Of a DNA stretch of 64,000 nt, positions 10,087 to 51,146 are shown one piece after another. A program made the translations under genes and the position numbers. Position 1 is the stretch's first letter, and every line of letters starts with the position of its first letter. A model generated the notes under the pieces. That model made no database searches and had not been told where the DNA came from. It saw nothing but the letters and a program-made list of their open reading frames with translations. Source of the DNA: Jatrophihabitans cynanchi. Lineage in GTDB: Bacteria; Actinomycetota; Actinomycetes; Mycobacteriales; Jatrophihabitantaceae. Location of the stretch: positions 930,001-994,000 of the forward strand of contig NZ_CP097463.1 of the NCBI RefSeq assembly GCF_027247405.1, in the 5' to 3' direction.

Positions 10087-11281
10087 CGAGCTGGAGCCCG
10101 CCGACGAGCCGCGCCGGCGCCGCAACTCGGCCGAGGCGGTCACCTGGGAGGTCCGCGTCGCGGCGTCCTGGACGTGGCGGCTGCTCCTCCTCGGCTTCGG
10201 CGTGTACGTGCTGGCACGCATCTTCGACCGCATCGAGCTCGTCGCGTTGTCGTTCGTCCTGGCGCTGTTCTTCACCGCGATCCTGCACCCGCTCGAGCGG
10301 CGGCTGAACGGCCTGGTGCGCAAGCCGCGCTCGCTGTCGGCGGCGATCGCGCTGCTGATCGGCATCGCCGTGCTCGGCGGCATCGGCTGGTTCGTGGTCT
10401 GGCAGATCACCACGCACGCCGACCAGCTCGGCTCGCAGATCACCGACTTCGTCGACAAGACCCGCACCTGGCTGCAGACCGGGCCGCTGCACCTGAAGTC
10501 CGCCGACCTGGACAAGCTGGCCGACAACATCAGCACCGCGGTGAAGGACCATCAGGGCCAGCTGATCAGCGGCGCGATCGAGACCGTCCGCACGGTCGTC
10601 GAGGCGCTCGGCGCGCTGCTGCTGATCCTGCTCTCGACCTTCTTCCTGCTCCGCGACGGCGAGATGGTGTGGGACTGGGTGGTTCGGCTGTTCCCGCGCA
10701 CCGCCCAGCAGAAGCTCGATCACGCAGGACGGGTCGGCTGGGGCAGCCTGGGCGGCTACATGCGCGGCCAACTGCTCATCGCGCTGTTCCACGGCATCAC
10801 GATCAGCATCGTGCTGGTCGTGCTGAACGTCCCGCTCGCGGCGGCGCTCGGCGTGCTGATCTTCCTCGGCTCGTTCATCCCGCTGGTCGGCCTCACCGTC
10901 TCGGGCGCGCTGTGCGTCGCCGTCACCTTGCTCGAGCACGGTGTGACCGGGGCGATCGTGGTCGCGGTGGCGATCATCCTGCTCGTGCAGATCGAGGGTC
11001 ACGTGCTGCAGCCGTTCATCATGAGCCGAAGTGTCGAGGTGCACCCACTGGCGATCGCGCTGGCCGTGCTGACCGGCACGCTGCTGGCCGGCATCGTCGG
11101 CGCGCTGCTCGCCGTGCCGTTCGTCGCGTTCCTGAACTCGACGGTGCACGCGCTGCGCGGCACGCCCGCGAGCCTGCCGGACGGTCAGGAGTTCCCGGTC
11201 GTCGACGAGTCCGGCGGGCAGCCGTCCTCCGGCGGGCAGCCGTCGTCCGGTTCGGCCGAGGAGGGCCGCGAGGACGCGTGA
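10076..11281 (+). CDS. AI-2E family permease (TqsA/PerM-like)
   Basis: 401 residues. It has the family's typical order: two N-terminal helices (35-95), a large soluble coiled region (about 100-180), then a helix bundle with SLGGYMRGQLLIALFHGI and the conserved segment GVLIFLGSFIPLVG. Charged residues dominate both ends. Family members export small molecules such as AI-2, or ions; the substrate here is unknown. The ATG lies inside the 3' end of the CobT-like gene, so the two are co-transcribed. The C-terminal tail contains the repeat GGQPSSGGQPSS from an 18-base tandem duplication (11210-11245) and overlaps the opposite-strand gene by 97 bases. Confidence 0.85.
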   Translation: MPADELEPADEPRRRRNSAEAVTWEVRVAASWTWRLLLLGFGVYVLARIFDRIELVALSFVLALFFTAILHPLERRLNGLVRKPRSLSAAIALLIGIAVLGGIGWFVVWQITTHADQLGSQITDFVDKTRTWLQTGPLHLKSADLDKLADNISTAVKDHQGQLISGAIETVRTVVEALGALLLILLSTFFLLRDGEMVWDWVVRLFPRTAQQKLDHAGRVGWGSLGGYMRGQLLIALFHGITISIVLVVLNVPLAAALGVLIFLGSFIPLVGLTVSGALCVAVTLLEHGVTGAIVVAVAIILLVQIEGHVLQPFIMSRSVEVHPLAIALAVLTGTLLAGIVGALLAVPFVAFLNSTVHALRGTPASLPDGQEFPVVDESGGQPSSGGQPSSGSAEEGREDA

Positions 11282-12132
11282 TGGCGTTTGAGCGTCGGTG
11301 ACCGGACGATCTCGACGGTGCCGGCGATCATCGCGATCACGCAGACCGCTTCCACGGCGAGCGCGCCCGGGCTTACCGACAGGGTGTTGCCGAACACCGC
11401 GACGCCGAGCGTGACGCCGGTGATCGGCTCGGCGACCGCAGTCGGCGCCAGCGAGTGGTCGAGGCGCGAGGACGCGAACGCGCTCTGTGACAGCAGGATG
11501 CCGATCATCGCGGACGCGATCACGACGTACGTCCAGATAGAGGTGCCGAGCGCCGCGACGCCGTGCCGGTTCGCGGTGTCCAGCGCCTGCTGCGTCGCCG
11601 CGTCCTGCAGCCCGTACATCAGCCCGGCGGCGGTCGCCAGCAGGATCGCCTCGGCCACCAGGTTGCGCGCGCTGCGGCCGATCACGACGAGTACCAGGGC
11701 CGAGCCGACGACCACCACCAGCACCAACCCGGCGAGCGCGATCGGCGGCGGGCTCGGGTGCTCGACCCGGTGCGGGTCACCCACCGCGATGAACACGCCG
11801 AGGGCGGCCGACAGCAGCAGCGCACCGCCGACCTCGCGCCGGGTAGCCCGCTTGCGCGCGAACGCGGCCGCGATCACGAACGCGAACAGCAGATTCGTCG
11901 ACAGCAGCGGTTCGACCAGCGCGACCGCACCCATCCCGAGCGCCACCGCACCGAGGACCTGCCCGCACACCATCGCGGCGATGCCGAAGCGCCAGTCACG
12001 CACCCGGGCCAGGTGCACCAGCAGCCGCCAGGACACCAGTTCGCTCAGCGGGGCGCGCGCGGCCGCGCGCTGCTGGAGCACCCAGCCGAGCCCGAGGCTG
12101 ACCGCGGCTACCAAGCCGGCTGCGAAGATCAT
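11185..12132 (-). CDS. DMT-superfamily (EamA-like) permease, second of a pair
   Basis: 315 residues, about nine or ten membrane helices, starting MIFAAGLVAAVSLGLGWVLQ. The internal duplication and small-residue-rich helices fit the drug/metabolite transporter superfamily. Its ATG overlaps the stop of the upstream paralogous permease (ATGA at 12129-12132), so the pair is probably co-translated and may form a heterodimer, as in paired SMR/DMT exporters. The C-terminal ~38 residues are hydrophilic, rich in Pro/Ser/Asp, and are antisense to the AI-2E family gene tail, so they are unlikely to be conserved. Confidence 0.75.
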   Translation of the reverse strand: MIFAAGLVAAVSLGLGWVLQQRAAARAPLSELVSWRLLVHLARVRDWRFGIAAMVCGQVLGAVALGMGAVALVEPLLSTNLLFAFVIAAAFARKRATRREVGGALLLSAALGVFIAVGDPHRVEHPSPPPIALAGLVLVVVVGSALVLVVIGRSARNLVAEAILLATAAGLMYGLQDAATQQALDTANRHGVAALGTSIWTYVVIASAMIGILLSQSAFASSRLDHSLAPTAVAEPITGVTLGVAVFGNTLSVSPGALAVEAVCVIAMIAGTVEIVRSPTLKRHHASSRPSSAEPDDGCPPEDGCPPDSSTTGNS

Positions 12133-13016
12133 CTGTCGGCCAGCTCCGCGGCCCGCTGCGAGGAGCGGGCGAGAACCATGACCGAGCCGGCGATCATCGC
12201 GGCGCCGAGGGCGGCCAGCGCAAGTGCCGACACCGAGGTGCTCACCGTCTCCCCGAGCACCACCGTGCCCCACAGCAGCGAGACCAGCGGGTCGAACAAG
12301 GTGATGCCGGGTTGGGCCGCCACCAGCGTCCCGGCGTGCAGCGCAGCCTGGATCAGCACCACCGAGGCGACACCGGTCACCGCGAACCCGTAGGTCTGCC
12401 AGGCCGTGAACAGCCCGACGACCCCGCCCGCGCTGAGCCGGGCCATCGCCACCTTGATCAGCGAGGCGGTCAGGCCGAACCCGCTGCCGGCGGCGACGCC
12501 GAACAACGCGGCGCGGCTGCGAGCCGGACCGGCCGCGGCGAACGCGGTCAGCGCGGCGATCCCGGCCGCGGTGCCGACGGTGGCAAGAAGCGACACCAGT
12601 GCCGACACGTGCGCGGCGTCCCCGCCGGACGGTGACAGCAGGGCGACGAACAGGACGAGGCCGGCGGTCATGGTCACGATCCCCGCCCAGTCACGCAGCA
12701 GCAGGTGGTGGTGCAGCACGGCCGAGGCCAGGATCAGCGTCATCGGCAGCTCGAGAACGAGGACCGGTTCGACCGAGGACAGTTCGCCGCGGCTCAGAGC
12801 GCCCGCCTGCAGCAGGAACGAGGCGAGCATCGCGGCCGCGCCGACCAGCCAGGCCGGTTGCCGCACCAGCGAGCCGAGCAGGCGCAGCCCGAACGTCTCC
12901 TCGCTGCGCTTGCGGTTCGCCTCACGCTGCATGACGCTCGACAGCGCGTTGGACGCCGCCGCAGCGACGGCCATCCCCAAGCTGACCAGCTGAGTTCCGT
13001 CACCACAGCACTTCAC
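12129..13016 (-). CDS. DMT-superfamily (EamA-like) permease, first of a pair
   Basis: 295 residues with about ten hydrophobic helices. Recognisable stretches are LLGSLVRQPAWLVGAAAML and, near the C-terminus, PLVSLLWGTVVLGE, the EamA-type end of the second half. The start is taken at ATG 13016 (MKCCGDGTQ). An internal ATG after QLVSLG is possible, which would put residue 1 directly at the first helix. It is transcribed toward its paralogue. It is divergent from the glycosyltransferase at 13142, with a 7-bp hairpin (13030-13048) between. The substrate is unknown. Confidence 0.75.
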   Translation of the reverse strand: MKCCGDGTQLVSLGMAVAAAASNALSSVMQREANRKRSEETFGLRLLGSLVRQPAWLVGAAAMLASFLLQAGALSRGELSSVEPVLVLELPMTLILASAVLHHHLLLRDWAGIVTMTAGLVLFVALLSPSGGDAAHVSALVSLLATVGTAAGIAALTAFAAAGPARSRAALFGVAAGSGFGLTASLIKVAMARLSAGGVVGLFTAWQTYGFAVTGVASVVLIQAALHAGTLVAAQPGITLFDPLVSLLWGTVVLGETVSTSVSALALAALGAAMIAGSVMVLARSSQRAAELADR

Positions 13017-13029
13017 AGCTCTACCCGTT

Positions 13030-13048
13030 TCCGTTGCCGATCAACGGA
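13030..13048. promoter_or_regulatory. Inverted repeat in divergent intergenic region
   Basis: TCCGTTG (13030-13036) and CAACGGA (13042-13048) form a perfect 7-bp dyad with a CCGAT spacer, between the DMT gene start (13016) and the glycosyltransferase start. It could be an operator shared by the divergent genes; no promoter hexamers are convincing. Confidence 0.35.
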
Positions 13049-13141
13049 CCGTAGCGCGCGCAGTTTGCCGGCCCCGGTGCGCGGGAAGCCTTCCGGCGCA
13101 GCGGATGGACGCGAACGCTCCGGTCGAAGGGGTTGAACGAC

Positions 13142-14242
13142 GTGCCGAGCACACCACGCGGTCGTGCCCTGGTCGTGACGGCCAGCATGGGAGCGGGCCA
13201 CACCGCGGTGGCCGACGAACTCGCCCGCCGGTTGCGCGCGGCAGGTTCCGAGGCGGTCGTGGTCGACCTGCTCGAGCTGGCCGGTTCCGCGGGCACCCGG
13301 TTGCGCCGCACCTACCGGCTGCTGCTCGATCACGCGCCCTGGCTCTACGACGCGTCGATGCGGTTCTGGATGCACGCCCCGCACGCGATGGAACGGCTCA
13401 CCGCGGCGGGGGCGGCGCCGTTCGAGCGGGCGCTCGCCGACGCGGTCGCCGAGCACCGCCCGGACGTGGTGGTGAGCTGTTACAACCTGGCGGCGCAGTG
13501 CCTCGGCCGGTTACGCGCGAGCGGACGCATCGGCACAGCGCTGGTGACGCTGGTGACCGATCCGGGAGCACATCCGTACTGGATCAGTCCGGACGTCGAC
13601 CTGCATCTCGCCTACACCCGCGACACGGCCGCGCGGTTGGCGGCGCTGGGGGCCCGCGAGGTCGCCTGGGTCGCCCCGGTGCTGCGTCCGGAGTTCACAC
13701 CGCCGCCGGATCGCGCGCAGGCCCGCGCGGCCCTGGGTCTGGCGGCTGACGCACGCATCGCCGTGGTCAACGCCGGCAGCTGGGCGGTCGGCCGGTTCCG
13801 GCAGACGCTCGACGCGCTCGCCGACGCGCCGGGGTGGCAGGTCCTCGCACTGTGCGGCCGCGACGAGGGCGCGCTGCGCTACGCGCGTGCGCATCCGGCC
13901 GTGCTGGCCGTGCCCTGGACCCCTCAGCTCGCGCAGTACCTGGCGGCGGCCGACCTGCTCGTCGACAACGCGGGCGGGCAGACCTGTTGGGAGGCGCTCG
14001 CCTGCGGCGTCCCGGTCGTGTGCTGTCACCCGCTGCCCGGCCACGGCCGGGTGAACGCCGCCGAACTGCGCTCGCTCGGGCTGATCCGCTGCGTGGACCG
14101 GGTCGCCGAGCTGCCGTCGGCGTTGGCGTCCGCTCCGGCCGTCGCGCACCCCGGCGTGGACCCGTTCCGGGGGGCGGACGCCGCGACGCTCATCCAGCGG
14201 GCCGCCCGGGCGGCCCCGGCGCTCGACGGGGCCGCGCGATGA
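13142..14242 (+). CDS. Glycosyltransferase, MGDG synthase/MurG-like (GT28-type fold)
   Basis: 366 residues. The N-terminal domain starts with the GAGHT loop (MGAGHTAVADELARRL) used by processive diacylglycerol glucosyltransferases and MGDG synthases. The C-terminal domain has the donor-site pattern VPWTPQLAQYLAAADLLVDNAGG followed by ALACGVPVVCCHPLPGH. It probably glycosylates a membrane lipid. The GTG at 13142 is chosen because GAAGGGG lies 9-10 bases before it; a TTG at 13133 is in frame but too close to that site. The stop overlaps a run of duplicated ATGA junctions leading to the deacetylase, so the two act in one envelope unit. Confidence 0.82.
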   Translation: MPSTPRGRALVVTASMGAGHTAVADELARRLRAAGSEAVVVDLLELAGSAGTRLRRTYRLLLDHAPWLYDASMRFWMHAPHAMERLTAAGAAPFERALADAVAEHRPDVVVSCYNLAAQCLGRLRASGRIGTALVTLVTDPGAHPYWISPDVDLHLAYTRDTAARLAALGAREVAWVAPVLRPEFTPPPDRAQARAALGLAADARIAVVNAGSWAVGRFRQTLDALADAPGWQVLALCGRDEGALRYARAHPAVLAVPWTPQLAQYLAAADLLVDNAGGQTCWEALACGVPVVCCHPLPGHGRVNAAELRSLGLIRCVDRVAELPSALASAPAVAHPGVDPFRGADAATLIQRAARAAPALDGAAR

Positions 14243-14276
14243 ACGGGGCCGGGCGATGAACGGAGCCGGGCGATGA
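14239..14276 (+). repeat. Tandem 17-base duplication creating two 6-codon coupled mini-ORFs
   Basis: ATGAACGGGGCCGGGCG (14239) and ATGAACGGAGCCGGGCG (14256) are adjacent copies, followed by ATGAACCGG at 14273. Each ATG overlaps a preceding TGA as ATGA. The result is glycosyltransferase stop, then MNGAGR-stop (14239-14259), MNGAGR-stop (14256-14276), then the deacetylase start. This could lower or tune re-initiation into the deacetylase. The minipeptides themselves are not claimed to be functional. Confidence 0.75.
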
Positions 14277-15028
14277 ACCGGGCGGTGCGGGCCGGCACGC
14301 TGGCCGCTGTCGGCGCCGGGTGGGCGGCGCACGCGGTGCCGAGCGTCGCCTCGATCGCGCCGCTGCGCCGGGCCGCGACGCCGCGGCTCTACGGGGTGCC
14401 GGCCCGCGACCACGTGGCGCTGACGTTCGACGACGGGCCGGCACCGGAGTCGACCCCGCTGTTCCTGGACGCCCTGCGCTCGGCGGATGTGCGCGCCACC
14501 TTCTTCGTGCTCGGCTCGTGCCTGCGCGAGCATCCGGACCTGGGCCGGCGGATCCTCGCCGAGGGTCATGAGCTCGGCGTGCACGGCTGGGTGCACCGCC
14601 CGCACCTGCTGCGCTCGCCGCGCGCCGTCCTGTCGGACATGAACCGGACGGTGCGGTTGATCGAGCAGGTCACCGGCGTCCGGCCGCGCTACTGGCGCCC
14701 GCCGCACGGCATCACCACCGGGTCGGGGCTCTGGGCGGCGCGCCGGCTCGGGCTGACCCCCGTGCTGTGGACCGCCGACGGACGGGACTGGCACGCGTCT
14801 GCGACTGCGGCCACGGTGCGCGAGCGGCTCGGCTCGCATCTGGACGGCGGCGCGGTGGTCCTGCTGCACGACGCCGACACCACCTCGGCCCCGCAGTCCT
14901 GGCGCAGCGCGCTCGCGGCGCTGCCCTGGCTGGTGGACACCTGTCGCGGCCGCGGCCTGCGGGTCGGCCCACTGGGCGAGCACCTGCAGGTGCAGCGCGA
15001 GCACCCGCAGTCGGGGCGCGACCGCTGA
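14273..15028 (+). CDS. Polysaccharide deacetylase (NodB/CE4 family)
   Basis: 251 residues. Residues 1-35 form a hydrophobic membrane or export segment. CE4 motifs: TFDDGPAP at about 50 (catalytic and metal Asp), HGWVHRPH at about 104-111 (metal His pair, H-x(3)-H), and RPPHG at about 143. The last part, VVLLHDADT, supplies the motif His. It removes acetyl groups from a cell-envelope polysaccharide or from peptidoglycan. The ATG at 14273 is the last of three duplicated ATGA junctions; earlier ATGs are closed by stops. Pairing with the upstream glycosyltransferase suggests a common envelope task. Confidence 0.85.
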   Translation: MNRAVRAGTLAAVGAGWAAHAVPSVASIAPLRRAATPRLYGVPARDHVALTFDDGPAPESTPLFLDALRSADVRATFFVLGSCLREHPDLGRRILAEGHELGVHGWVHRPHLLRSPRAVLSDMNRTVRLIEQVTGVRPRYWRPPHGITTGSGLWAARRLGLTPVLWTADGRDWHASATAATVRERLGSHLDGGAVVLLHDADTTSAPQSWRSALAALPWLVDTCRGRGLRVGPLGEHLQVQREHPQSGRDR

Positions 15029-15033
15029 CAGCG

Positions 15034-15375
15034 TCAGCGGTTGTCGCGGCGCACGGCGACGGTGAGCAGCACGGCGGAGTCCTCGAGCGCCAGCAACGCG
15101 TGCCGGCTGTCCGGGATCGCGAGGTGATCGCCCACGGCGCCGTCCCACTCGTCCTGCCCGGCGGTCAGCCGGACCCGGCCGTGCAGAACCTGCAGCGTCG
15201 CCTCGCCGGGGCTCTCGTGCTCGTCCAGGCTGACGCCGGACCGGAGCGCGACCAGCGTCTGCCGCAGCACGTGTTCGTGGCCGCCGTAAACGGTGTGCGC
15301 GCTGCGTCCGCTCGCGTTCTCCGTCGCGCTGGCCAGGTGCTGGCGGGCCATCGCGGTGAGCGAGATCTTGTTCAT
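15034..15375 (-). CDS. Cupin-domain protein
   Basis: 113 residues, a single small beta-barrel of the cupin fold: LRSGVSLDEHESPGEATLQV carries the first metal-type histidine region, then VLHGRVRL and GDHLAIPDSRHALLALED, the second motif with its His. Such proteins often protect against or sense small ligands; no substrate can be named. The ATG at 15375 has GAGGAGG 10 bases upstream. The stop lies 5 bases after the convergent deacetylase stop. It is divergent from another cupin at 15443. Confidence 0.75.
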   Translation of the reverse strand: MNKISLTAMARQHLASATENASGRSAHTVYGGHEHVLRQTLVALRSGVSLDEHESPGEATLQVLHGRVRLTAGQDEWDGAVGDHLAIPDSRHALLALEDSAVLLTVAVRRDNR

Positions 15376-29459: not shown

Positions 29460-29960
29460 GTGACGCCGAATCCCAGCAGCGAGTCCTGTGCGGCCCTGCT
29501 CACCTCGGCCCGCACGCTGCACGGCCTGCACCGGCGCCTGTTGCGCGAGGACAGCACCCAGTGCTCCGCCCTGCGCGCCAACGTCCTGGCCGCCGTCGCC
29601 GACCACGGCCCGCTGCGTCCGTCCACCCTCGCCGAGCAACTGCGGATCGACGGGTCGGTCGCGAGCCGGCAGCTGCACTGCCTCGACGTCGACGGCCTCG
29701 TCGAACGCGTCACCGACCCCGCCGACCGCCGGGCCCAGCTGGTGCGCATCACCGCGCCCGGACGCGACTACCTGGACGGCCTGCGCCGCCGCGCGAGCAG
29801 CGCACTCGCCGGCCGGCTGGCCGGCTGGTCCGATGACGACGTCCACACCCTGGCCGAGCAGTTGCTCCGGCTCGAACACAGCCTCTCCCACGAACACAGC
29901 CTCTCCCGCGAGCACAGCCTCTCCGCGCTCCACGATCCACAGAAGGGCAGCACCGCATGA
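29460..29960 (+). CDS. MarR-family transcriptional regulator (exporter operon)
   Basis: 166 residues from GTG 29460 (GAAAG 8 bases upstream; an in-frame TTG at 29430 overlaps the -10 and is rejected). Helix-turn-helix PSTLAEQLRIDGSVASRQL and wing LVERVTDPADRRAQLVRIT. The C-terminus carries a hexapeptide repeat EHSLS(H/R) three times, from an 18-base tandem triplication (29874-29927). Its stop overlaps the exporter start (ATGA), so it probably represses its own operon and releases on ligand binding. Confidence 0.88.
   Translation: MTPNPSSESCAALLTSARTLHGLHRRLLREDSTQCSALRANVLAAVADHGPLRPSTLAEQLRIDGSVASRQLHCLDVDGLVERVTDPADRRAQLVRITAPGRDYLDGLRRRASSALAGRLAGWSDDDVHTLAEQLLRLEHSLSHEHSLSREHSLSALHDPQKGSTA
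29874..29927 (+). repeat. Three tandem 18-base units in the MarR gene tail
   Basis: GAACACAGCCTCTCCCAC and two near-identical copies (29874, 29892, 29910) encode three EHSLS-type hexapeptides. The frame is preserved because the unit is divisible by three. Confidence 0.85.
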
Positions 29961-34436: not shown

Positions 34437-34860
34437 CGAGCAGGTCGGAGCAGGCCTCGGTGACGATGTCCAGCACCGTCTCGAAGCCGAGTTCCCCGCC
34501 GTAGTAGGGATCCGGGACGTCGACCGCCGCCAGCTTGCGCACCTTGTGCTCGGTTCCCGACGGCGCGAGGGCAAGCAGGTCGCGCAGGTTGTCCTCGTCC
34601 ATAGCGAGCAGCAGGTCGAAGTCGTGGAAGTCGCGTGCGGTGACCTGGCGTGCGGCGCCGTCGAGCACGATGCCGCGGCTGCGGGCGGCCGCGCTGGCGC
34701 GGCGGTCCGGACGGGCGCCGGCATGCCAGCCGCCGGTGCCCGCACTGTCGACCTCGATCGCGTCCTGCAGCCCGGCGCCGGCGACGAGGTGGCGCATCAC
34801 CGCCTCGGCCGAGGGCGAGCGGCAGATGTTGCCCATGCACACGAACAGCAGCCTGGTCAC
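34417..34860 (-). CDS. Low-molecular-weight phosphotyrosine-type phosphatase
   Basis: 147 residues. The catalytic P-loop CMGNICRS (8-15) and the general-acid DPYYGG segment are intact. It can act on phosphotyrosine, but LMW phosphatases encoded beside FN3K-like kinases are known candidates for ribulosamine-5-phosphate dephosphorylation. GTG start overlaps the PAP2 stop (GTGA), and its 3' end overlaps the kinase. Confidence 0.92.
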   Translation of the reverse strand: MTRLLFVCMGNICRSPSAEAVMRHLVAGAGLQDAIEVDSAGTGGWHAGARPDRRASAAARSRGIVLDGAARQVTARDFHDFDLLLAMDEDNLRDLLALAPSGTEHKVRKLAAVDVPDPYYGGELGFETVLDIVTEACSDLLDELRQT

Positions 34861-35768
34861 TCGACCCCCACCCCGTCCTCGGCCCGCACCCCGTCCTCGG
34901 CCCGCACCCCGTTGAGTGGCGACTTAGCTGTTGAGTGGCGGGCTATACGTCGCCACTCAACAGGTAACCCGCCACTCAACAGGCGGGGACGGAGGGCGGC
35001 GTGCCAGGCGGTGCGCACCCCGAACACGGCCCACGCGCACGCGGCCAGGATCGCGACCGCGACCGCACCGTCCAGCCACCAGTGGTTGCCCGTGACGACC
35101 ACGACCAGCACGGTGATCACCGCATGCACCGGGCCGAGCGCGCGCCACCGGCTGGGGCTGATCCGCCACACGTAGTACCCGACCAGTACCGCCCACGCCA
35201 CGTGCACCGACGGCATCGCCGAGAGCTGGTCGGCGGCGAGCCCGCTGCTGTAGACGGACTGGTGGTACCGGATCCCGGTGTCCACGATGCCGGGCAGCAT
35301 GCGCGGCGGTGCGACCGGCATCAGCTGCACCAGCAGGCAGCCCAGGGTCGTCCAGGCGAGCACCTGGCGCACCGGCCGGTACCGGTCGCGGTGCCGCACG
35401 AACAACCAGATCAGGAACAGCAGCATCACCGTCATGTGCATCGCGGCGTAGTACAGGTTCGCGGCCTGCACGACGAGCCGGTGGCCGAGCACGAGGTGCT
35501 GCACGCTGCGTTCGGACGGCAGCAGGAAATCGTGCTCGACCCGTTGGATCCAGTGCGCCCGCCGGAACGCCCCGTCGACGTCGGTGACCGACACCTTCCC
35601 GGCCAGGTGCCAGAGCCCGTAGAGCACACCGATGACGGCGGTCTCGCGCAGGAACGCGCCGACGGCCCGCACCGGGCGGCGGCCGGACAGCGCCATCGCC
35701 GAGCCGGCCGCGGCGAGCACGGCGGCCGTCTCGAACGAGTGCTGCCAGCTCAGCCCGACGGTCTGCAC
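34857..35768 (-). CDS. PAP2-family membrane phosphatase/inositolphosphotransferase-like
   Basis: 303 residues from GTG 35768. Six membrane helices; LSAMPSVHVAWAVLVGYYV carries the PSxH motif and VVVTGNHWWLDGAVAVAI the second-half catalytic His and Asp (HxxxD). It acts on lipid phosphates in the membrane. The last 42 residues, from LLSGG onward, are encoded by the palindromic repeat 34911-34980 and a duplicated 18-mer (tail GVRAEDGVRAED), so they were added by repeat insertion. It starts 44 bases after folP2 on the same strand. Confidence 0.85.
   Translation of the reverse strand: MQTVGLSWQHSFETAAVLAAAGSAMALSGRRPVRAVGAFLRETAVIGVLYGLWHLAGKVSVTDVDGAFRRAHWIQRVEHDFLLPSERSVQHLVLGHRLVVQAANLYYAAMHMTVMLLFLIWLFVRHRDRYRPVRQVLAWTTLGCLLVQLMPVAPPRMLPGIVDTGIRYHQSVYSSGLAADQLSAMPSVHVAWAVLVGYYVWRISPSRWRALGPVHAVITVLVVVVTGNHWWLDGAVAVAILAACAWAVFGVRTAWHAALRPRLLSGGLPVEWRRIARHSTAKSPLNGVRAEDGVRAEDGVGVE
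34870..34905 (-). repeat. Two tandem 18-base units in the PAP2 gene tail
   Basis: ACCCCGTCCTCGGCCCGC occurs at 34870-34887 and again at 34888-34905 and encodes GVRAED twice on the minus strand. It directly abuts the four-armed element at 34911. Confidence 0.85.
34911..34980. repeat. Four-armed palindromic repeat element, copy 1
   Basis: GTTGAGTGGCGA (34911-34922), GTTGAGTGGCGG (34930-34941), TCGCCACTCAAC (34950-34961), CCGCCACTCAAC (34969-34980): two direct arms facing two inverted arms, 7-8 bases apart. The same architecture recurs at 52053-52122. The element can fold into one long interrupted hairpin or two alternative ones. It lies in frame within the 3' end of the PAP2 gene. Confidence 0.85.

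Positions 35769-48254: not shown

Positions 48255-51146
<2,892 letters not shown>

Follow-up and report, generated by a model that had tools for sequence, protein, structure and literature searches.

A tandem array of stop-start junctions

The window, a 64,000-nt stretch of the Jatrophihabitans cynanchi genome, contains a glycosyltransferase gene (GT, 13133-14242, + strand) followed by a NodB-type polysaccharide deacetylase gene (DA, 14273-15028, + strand), with a DMT-family transporter gene as the divergent neighbor (12129-13016, - strand; NF038012, E=2.7e-25). The 369-aa GT combines an MGDG_synth domain (PF06925, E=6.9e-14) with a GT28 C-terminal domain (PF04101, E=1.9e-7) and ends in LDGAAR before the TGA stop at 14240-14242; its TTG start at 13133 is a mechanical ORF start and is putative. 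Among the NCBIfam models, GT matches the diglucosyl diacylglycerol synthase family below the cut-off, and the GlcN_PG_synth model gives a hit of only E=1.9e-5 with 23.7 bits against a cut-off of 480. The 251-aa DA carries an LTFDDGP motif and matches both PF01522 (Polysacc_deac_1, E=9.2e-33) and TIGR04243 (NodB, E=1.2e-36, below the cut-off).

DMT-like genes adjoin GT or DA in many relatives, with homologues in 45 fetched loci, several of which repeat one genome. The neighborhood of glycosyltransferase, deacetylase, and DMT genes, which occupies 11185-13016 (- strand) and 13133-15028 (+ strand) in the window, recurs across many Actinomycetes, and at locus L089 the DMT gene overlaps DA by GTGA. 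A glycosyltransferase, a deacetylase, and a candidate flippase likewise lie side by side in gpgSDF of Pseudomonas aeruginosa (PMC12713373), and PMC12713373 describes the same gene trio for hexSDF of Clostridioides difficile. The arrangement of neighbors is shared, but the protein families are not: when our Pfam and NCBIfam assignments are set against Table 2 of PMC12713373, which concerns gpgSDF, GpgS is GT4-like, GpgD belongs to COG3233, and GpgF to UPF0104, whereas the window encodes MGDG_synth/GT28, NodB-type CE4, and DMT proteins. By analogy with gpgSDF, and with this difference of families in mind, it is reasonable to guess that the GT-DA product is a glycolipid bearing a de-N-acetylated amino sugar.

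GT runs into DA through a tandem array that we confirm to be real, in which three 17-nt stop-start junctions lie head to tail. Unit 1 (ACGGGGCCGCGCGATGA, 14226-14242) lies within the 3′ end of GT and is followed by unit 2 (ACGGGGCCGGGCGATGA, 14243-14259) and unit 3 (ACGGAGCCGGGCGATGA, 14260-14276), all on the + strand and all delimited from the sequence and by TRF. A partial fourth match (ACCGGGCGG) comes after unit 3, and the whole array spans 14226-14283. Every unit terminates in ATGA, which places ATGs at 14239, 14256, and 14273, each overlapping a TGA, and two sites differ between the units. TRF assigns the array a period of 17, 3.4 copies, 90% matches, and a score of 95. The tandem duplication of an ATGA-bearing 17-nt junction unit, as proposed in the preliminary description, is borne out by the sequence, by TRF, and by relatives that carry a single RTGA. 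The three ATGA motifs that it listed also stand, but the extent it gave to the repeat does not: the repeat begins at 14226, inside GT, and comprises three units, that is, two extra copies.

The score of 95 ranks second among the TRF scores of the window. The top score (119) belongs to an array of 18 nt × 4.3 at 50845-50921; other arrays are found at 48371-48404 (GCTCCG × 5.7) and at 29873-29924 and 34860-34912 (18 nt × 2.9 each), and the next clear repeat with a unit that is not a multiple of three is one of 16 nt × 2.8 at 270-313. Short GC-rich tandem repeats are prone to miscounting, and the junction array might on that account be an artefact of assembly or sequencing, or a chance repeat. 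We regard this as highly improbable, since the two differences between the units argue against a simple assembly echo, the genome is in a single contig, similar arrays are present in five other genomes, and shuffled sequences fall short of the repeat score. The best non-3n tandem score in the window is 30, and the highest that 60 dinucleotide shuffles produced is 16.

A pattern search of the 4.5-Mb genome, limited to 2 mismatches over most of the unit length, found no exact unit copies elsewhere. The six other matches all have 2 mismatches and none is tandem, which rules out a dispersed repeat element. A general device of this genome can be ruled out as well; we surveyed 259 4-nt overlaps in 1.66 Mb (37% of the genome), and a clear duplication leading into a coding gene occurs only here. 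The other strong matches of that survey are satellite-like arrays without a gene start. At about 345949 of G000:C1 (L161), satellite-like 116-nt units with GTGTGACCAACCCCGTCTGC motifs come after a possible gene end, with no gene start following, and at about 2397800 (L223, - strand) a 15-nt array of GTGACCCGTCTGCGA is present in many copies, its motif resembling that of the 116-nt array.

Mini-ORFs, reading frames, and initiation at the deacetylase

Within the array, two mini-ORFs encode MNGAGR followed by a stop. The ATG of mini-ORF 1 (14239-14259, + strand) overlaps the GT stop, that of mini-ORF 2 (14256-14276, + strand) overlaps the stop of mini-ORF 1, and the stop of mini-ORF 2 overlaps the DA ATG. 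Both have 6 codons and share a 4-nt overlap with the next ORF, each closing exactly on the next ATGA because 17 = 2 mod 3. The ORF reading agrees with the earlier suggestion that ribosomes leaving GT could pass through two 6-codon ORFs, which form a closed chain.

The overlap of an upstream stop with a start codon as RTGA, present here at 14239, 14256, and 14273, is the one seen between adjacent genes in -4 nt pairs coupled by termination-reinitiation (TeRe), and no gene junction is more common in prokaryotes than a 4-nt overlap (PMC6728339, PMC10666635). In contrast to such pairs, the window has the overlap three times with two 6-codon ORFs in between, and the two long genes do not overlap directly; 30 nt separate the GT stop from the DA start, and the overlap between GT and DA exists only via the mini-ORFs. 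Very short leader ORFs that act in cis on the next gene have a precedent in axe-txe, where a two-codon minigene alters translation of the next gene and the distance from the minigene stop to the next start matters (PMC8708949). Mini-ORF 2 is such a short ORF just 5′ of the next start, in this case overlapping it. The axe-txe system, however, has one minigene, no junction duplication, and a measured positive effect, whereas the window has tandem units whose effect is predicted. A further actinobacterial example is uPPE2-PPE2 of Mycobacterium tuberculosis, in which a short uORF passes ribosomes on through an AUGA overlap and drives re-initiation (PMC11260477); there the uORF is riboswitch-linked, lies in a 5′ leader, and has a single overlap.

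The array shares near-identical head-to-tail units with VNTR switches, but on/off switching by frame is not a property of this one, as any copy number keeps the GT and DA frames intact, a stop and a start being present in each unit. We do not follow the preliminary description in its view that the non-3n unit length avoids a fusion: GT ends at the first TGA for any unit length, and a 3n unit would merely lengthen the DA N-terminus (compare the 9-nt duplication in G774). Two of the three phases of a duplicated junction leave DA reachable, with 0 mod 3 extending DA and 2 mod 3 giving a closed ORF. The three 17-nt units (51 nt) do place DA in the GT frame with only the TGA at 14240-14242 between them, and the frame is open from 14243 into DA (T-G-P-G-D-E-R-S-R-A-M-N...), such that read-through of this single stop would yield a GT-DA fusion. 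We give this explanation almost no credence, however, because the shared frame is automatic from 3 × 17 = 51 and the frame relation is absent from the other arrays and from single junctions.

A Shine-Dalgarno-like GGAG (14262-14265, + strand), which results from the G-to-A difference of unit 3, is located 7 nt 5′ of the DA ATG. The Shine-Dalgarno duplex energies are -7.7, -6.8, and -5.0 kcal/mol for units 3, 2, and 1, respectively, compared with a median of -6.4 kcal/mol for the 259 -4 nt junctions of the genome, 63% of which have a weaker duplex than the third ATG. That the array serves to strengthen the Shine-Dalgarno was ruled out, the third ATG being just slightly above the median. The spacing and duplex energy of the GGAG do favor a rival account, in which most DA translation starts directly at ATG 14273 and the mini-ORFs, skipped by ribosomes, do nothing, and Saito et al. 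2020, as represented in PMC10666635, make the case that many E. coli junctions initiate de novo. We consider this possible, though doubtful. The Shine-Dalgarno match is no better than average for the coupled junctions of this genome, the strong GC-rich local structure (-57.7 kcal/mol over about 100 nt) should favor an arriving ribosome that unwinds it, and 88 of the 104 junctions of relatives retain a 4-nt overlap. A scan of 12900-15100 with the sigma-70 consensus only, a weak test, returned no promoter-like site for DA.

Single overlaps and duplicated junctions in relatives

The GT-DA pair is present in many Actinomycetes. The 104 distinct GT-then-DA junctions depend on tblastn anchors, with coding calls made via frame composition in place of a gene caller; the 88 single 4-nt RTGA overlaps among them comprise 55 GTGA and 33 ATGA, and the remainder are 4 TGATG and 12 other junctions. 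One scan of genome contigs for relatives found only ones that are 40-47% identical. A single ATGA is also present in L004, a relative of the same family, and because this state is shared by L004 and the 88 junctions, one ATGA at the GT-DA junction is probably ancestral.

Duplicated junctions account for 6 of the 12 departures, in six lineages with the window included. In the window, the three 17-nt units close strictly on DA. G066 (L042) has a 42-nt unit and a further duplication, with 125 nt from GTGA to GTGA and one closed 42-codon ORF, and G281 (L062) has a 185-nt unit and one closed ORF of 62 codons. The largest array, in G270 (L047), has a unit of about 200-270 nt and six RTGA over 735 nt, with chained ORFs of 89, 67, and 90 codons that close on the DA GTG. 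Hand-over by 4-nt overlaps thus extends up to the DA start in four arrays (window, G066, G281, and G270). In G136 (L240), units of about 19 nt place RTGA at 0, 37, 56, and 75 and the chain is not closed, and in G132 (L229) an 18-nt unit gives a mini-ORF, MSQRLTMSQRLTA, that closes loosely on the TGATG of DA. Besides these six arrays, G774 (L131) has the 9-nt duplication, which stays in frame. The six arrays look like independent events because their sequences are unrelated and their unit lengths differ. Within genus g41, all GT-DA pairs that were read keep a single RTGA except G281 and G270, and as only these two depart from it, both events look recent. We note a second junction duplication in G066, at another gene pair, where a 60-nt unit with GTGA lies around position 7219 of L270 (- strand) between genes that, as named from a reading of the sequence, are DUF2064-like upstream and methyltransferase-like downstream.

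The closed chains of the window, G066, G281, and G270, taken with the axe-txe minigene precedent (PMC8708949) and the recurrence of duplications at one orthologous junction, raise the question of adaptive tuning, in line with the preliminary description's view of the array as a natural way to reduce or tune re-initiation. Selection on copy number would then have set the GT:DA ratio, with a fraction of the re-initiating ribosomes lost at each unit. The recurrence is seen in 4 of 82 GT-DA junctions (the window left out), whereas the other junctions show 2 cases in 361 (p = 0.012). This excess is gone, however, when the flanking junctions of these loci serve as the comparison (2 of 103, p = 0.24), and with such small counts the GT-DA junction is not established as a hot spot for duplication. 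Closure likewise gives a weaker signal than it first appears to, since even without selection it should come about in roughly half to two thirds of cases: phase-randomised controls close strictly at rates of 0.64 for the window, 0.66 for G066, 0.63 for G281, 0.47 for G270, and 0.56 for G136, while G132, which lacks junctions of the NTGA type, gives 0. Strict closure is observed in 4 of the 6 gap-forming arrays, which for these six arrays is no clear excess over the controls and does not demonstrate selection for closed chains. Moreover, the G136 array is not closed and most relatives keep a single unit. We therefore think it unlikely that tuning by selection explains the array.

A proposed relay and its implications

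From the array, its ORF chain, the single overlap of relatives, and the recurrence of such duplications, we infer, with a little better than even confidence, that the array arose by slippage, is near-neutral, and relays ribosomes from GT to DA at a probably lower yield. GT and DA would have started out as a normal pair coupled in translation through one 4-nt ATGA overlap, and lineage-specific copying slippage then duplicated a 17-nt segment across this overlap twice. Such a duplication would be tolerated because a stop and a start come with every unit, so that at any copy number GT still stops at the first TGA and DA still starts at the last ATG, and each extra unit would become a closed 6-codon ORF because 17 = 2 mod 3.

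How ribosomes behave at 4-nt overlaps, whether they step, scan, or start anew, is disputed. In the relay that we propose, a ribosome terminating GT would step back one base, translate MNGAGR twice, and then start DA, which amounts to three hand-overs. These would replace a 30-nt gap that is expected to allow little direct re-initiation; in E. coli, a distance of +14 nt costs 40-80% of re-initiation and one of +38 nt costs 80-100% (PMC10666635). Direct GT-DA coupling should accordingly be weak because the stop and the start are now 30 nt apart. The DA yield would probably fall below that of a single junction because each hand-over is unlikely to be complete, and some ribosomes may start directly at the third ATG behind the GGAG. 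The relay predicts a loss per unit and a need for each mini-ORF start, and direct initiation predicts neither.

We found no description of tandem-duplicated overlapping junctions in the open-access literature. A broader and decidedly speculative reading, which we hold to be improbable, is that overlapping junctions are expandable relays, in which repeated slippage strings together short ORFs of 6 to 90 codons, copy number serves as an evolvable ratio dial, and the GT-DA junction is a hot spot. If true, coupling would be preserved while yield is cut stepwise, providing a dial for the ratios of subunits or enzymes. The natural orthologous junctions with one, two, three, and six copies are ready-made test objects. 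The arrays also show a route from an overlap to a short intergenic region that does not break either gene, and those of G270 and G281 show how the 3′ end of a gene can supply new small ORFs.
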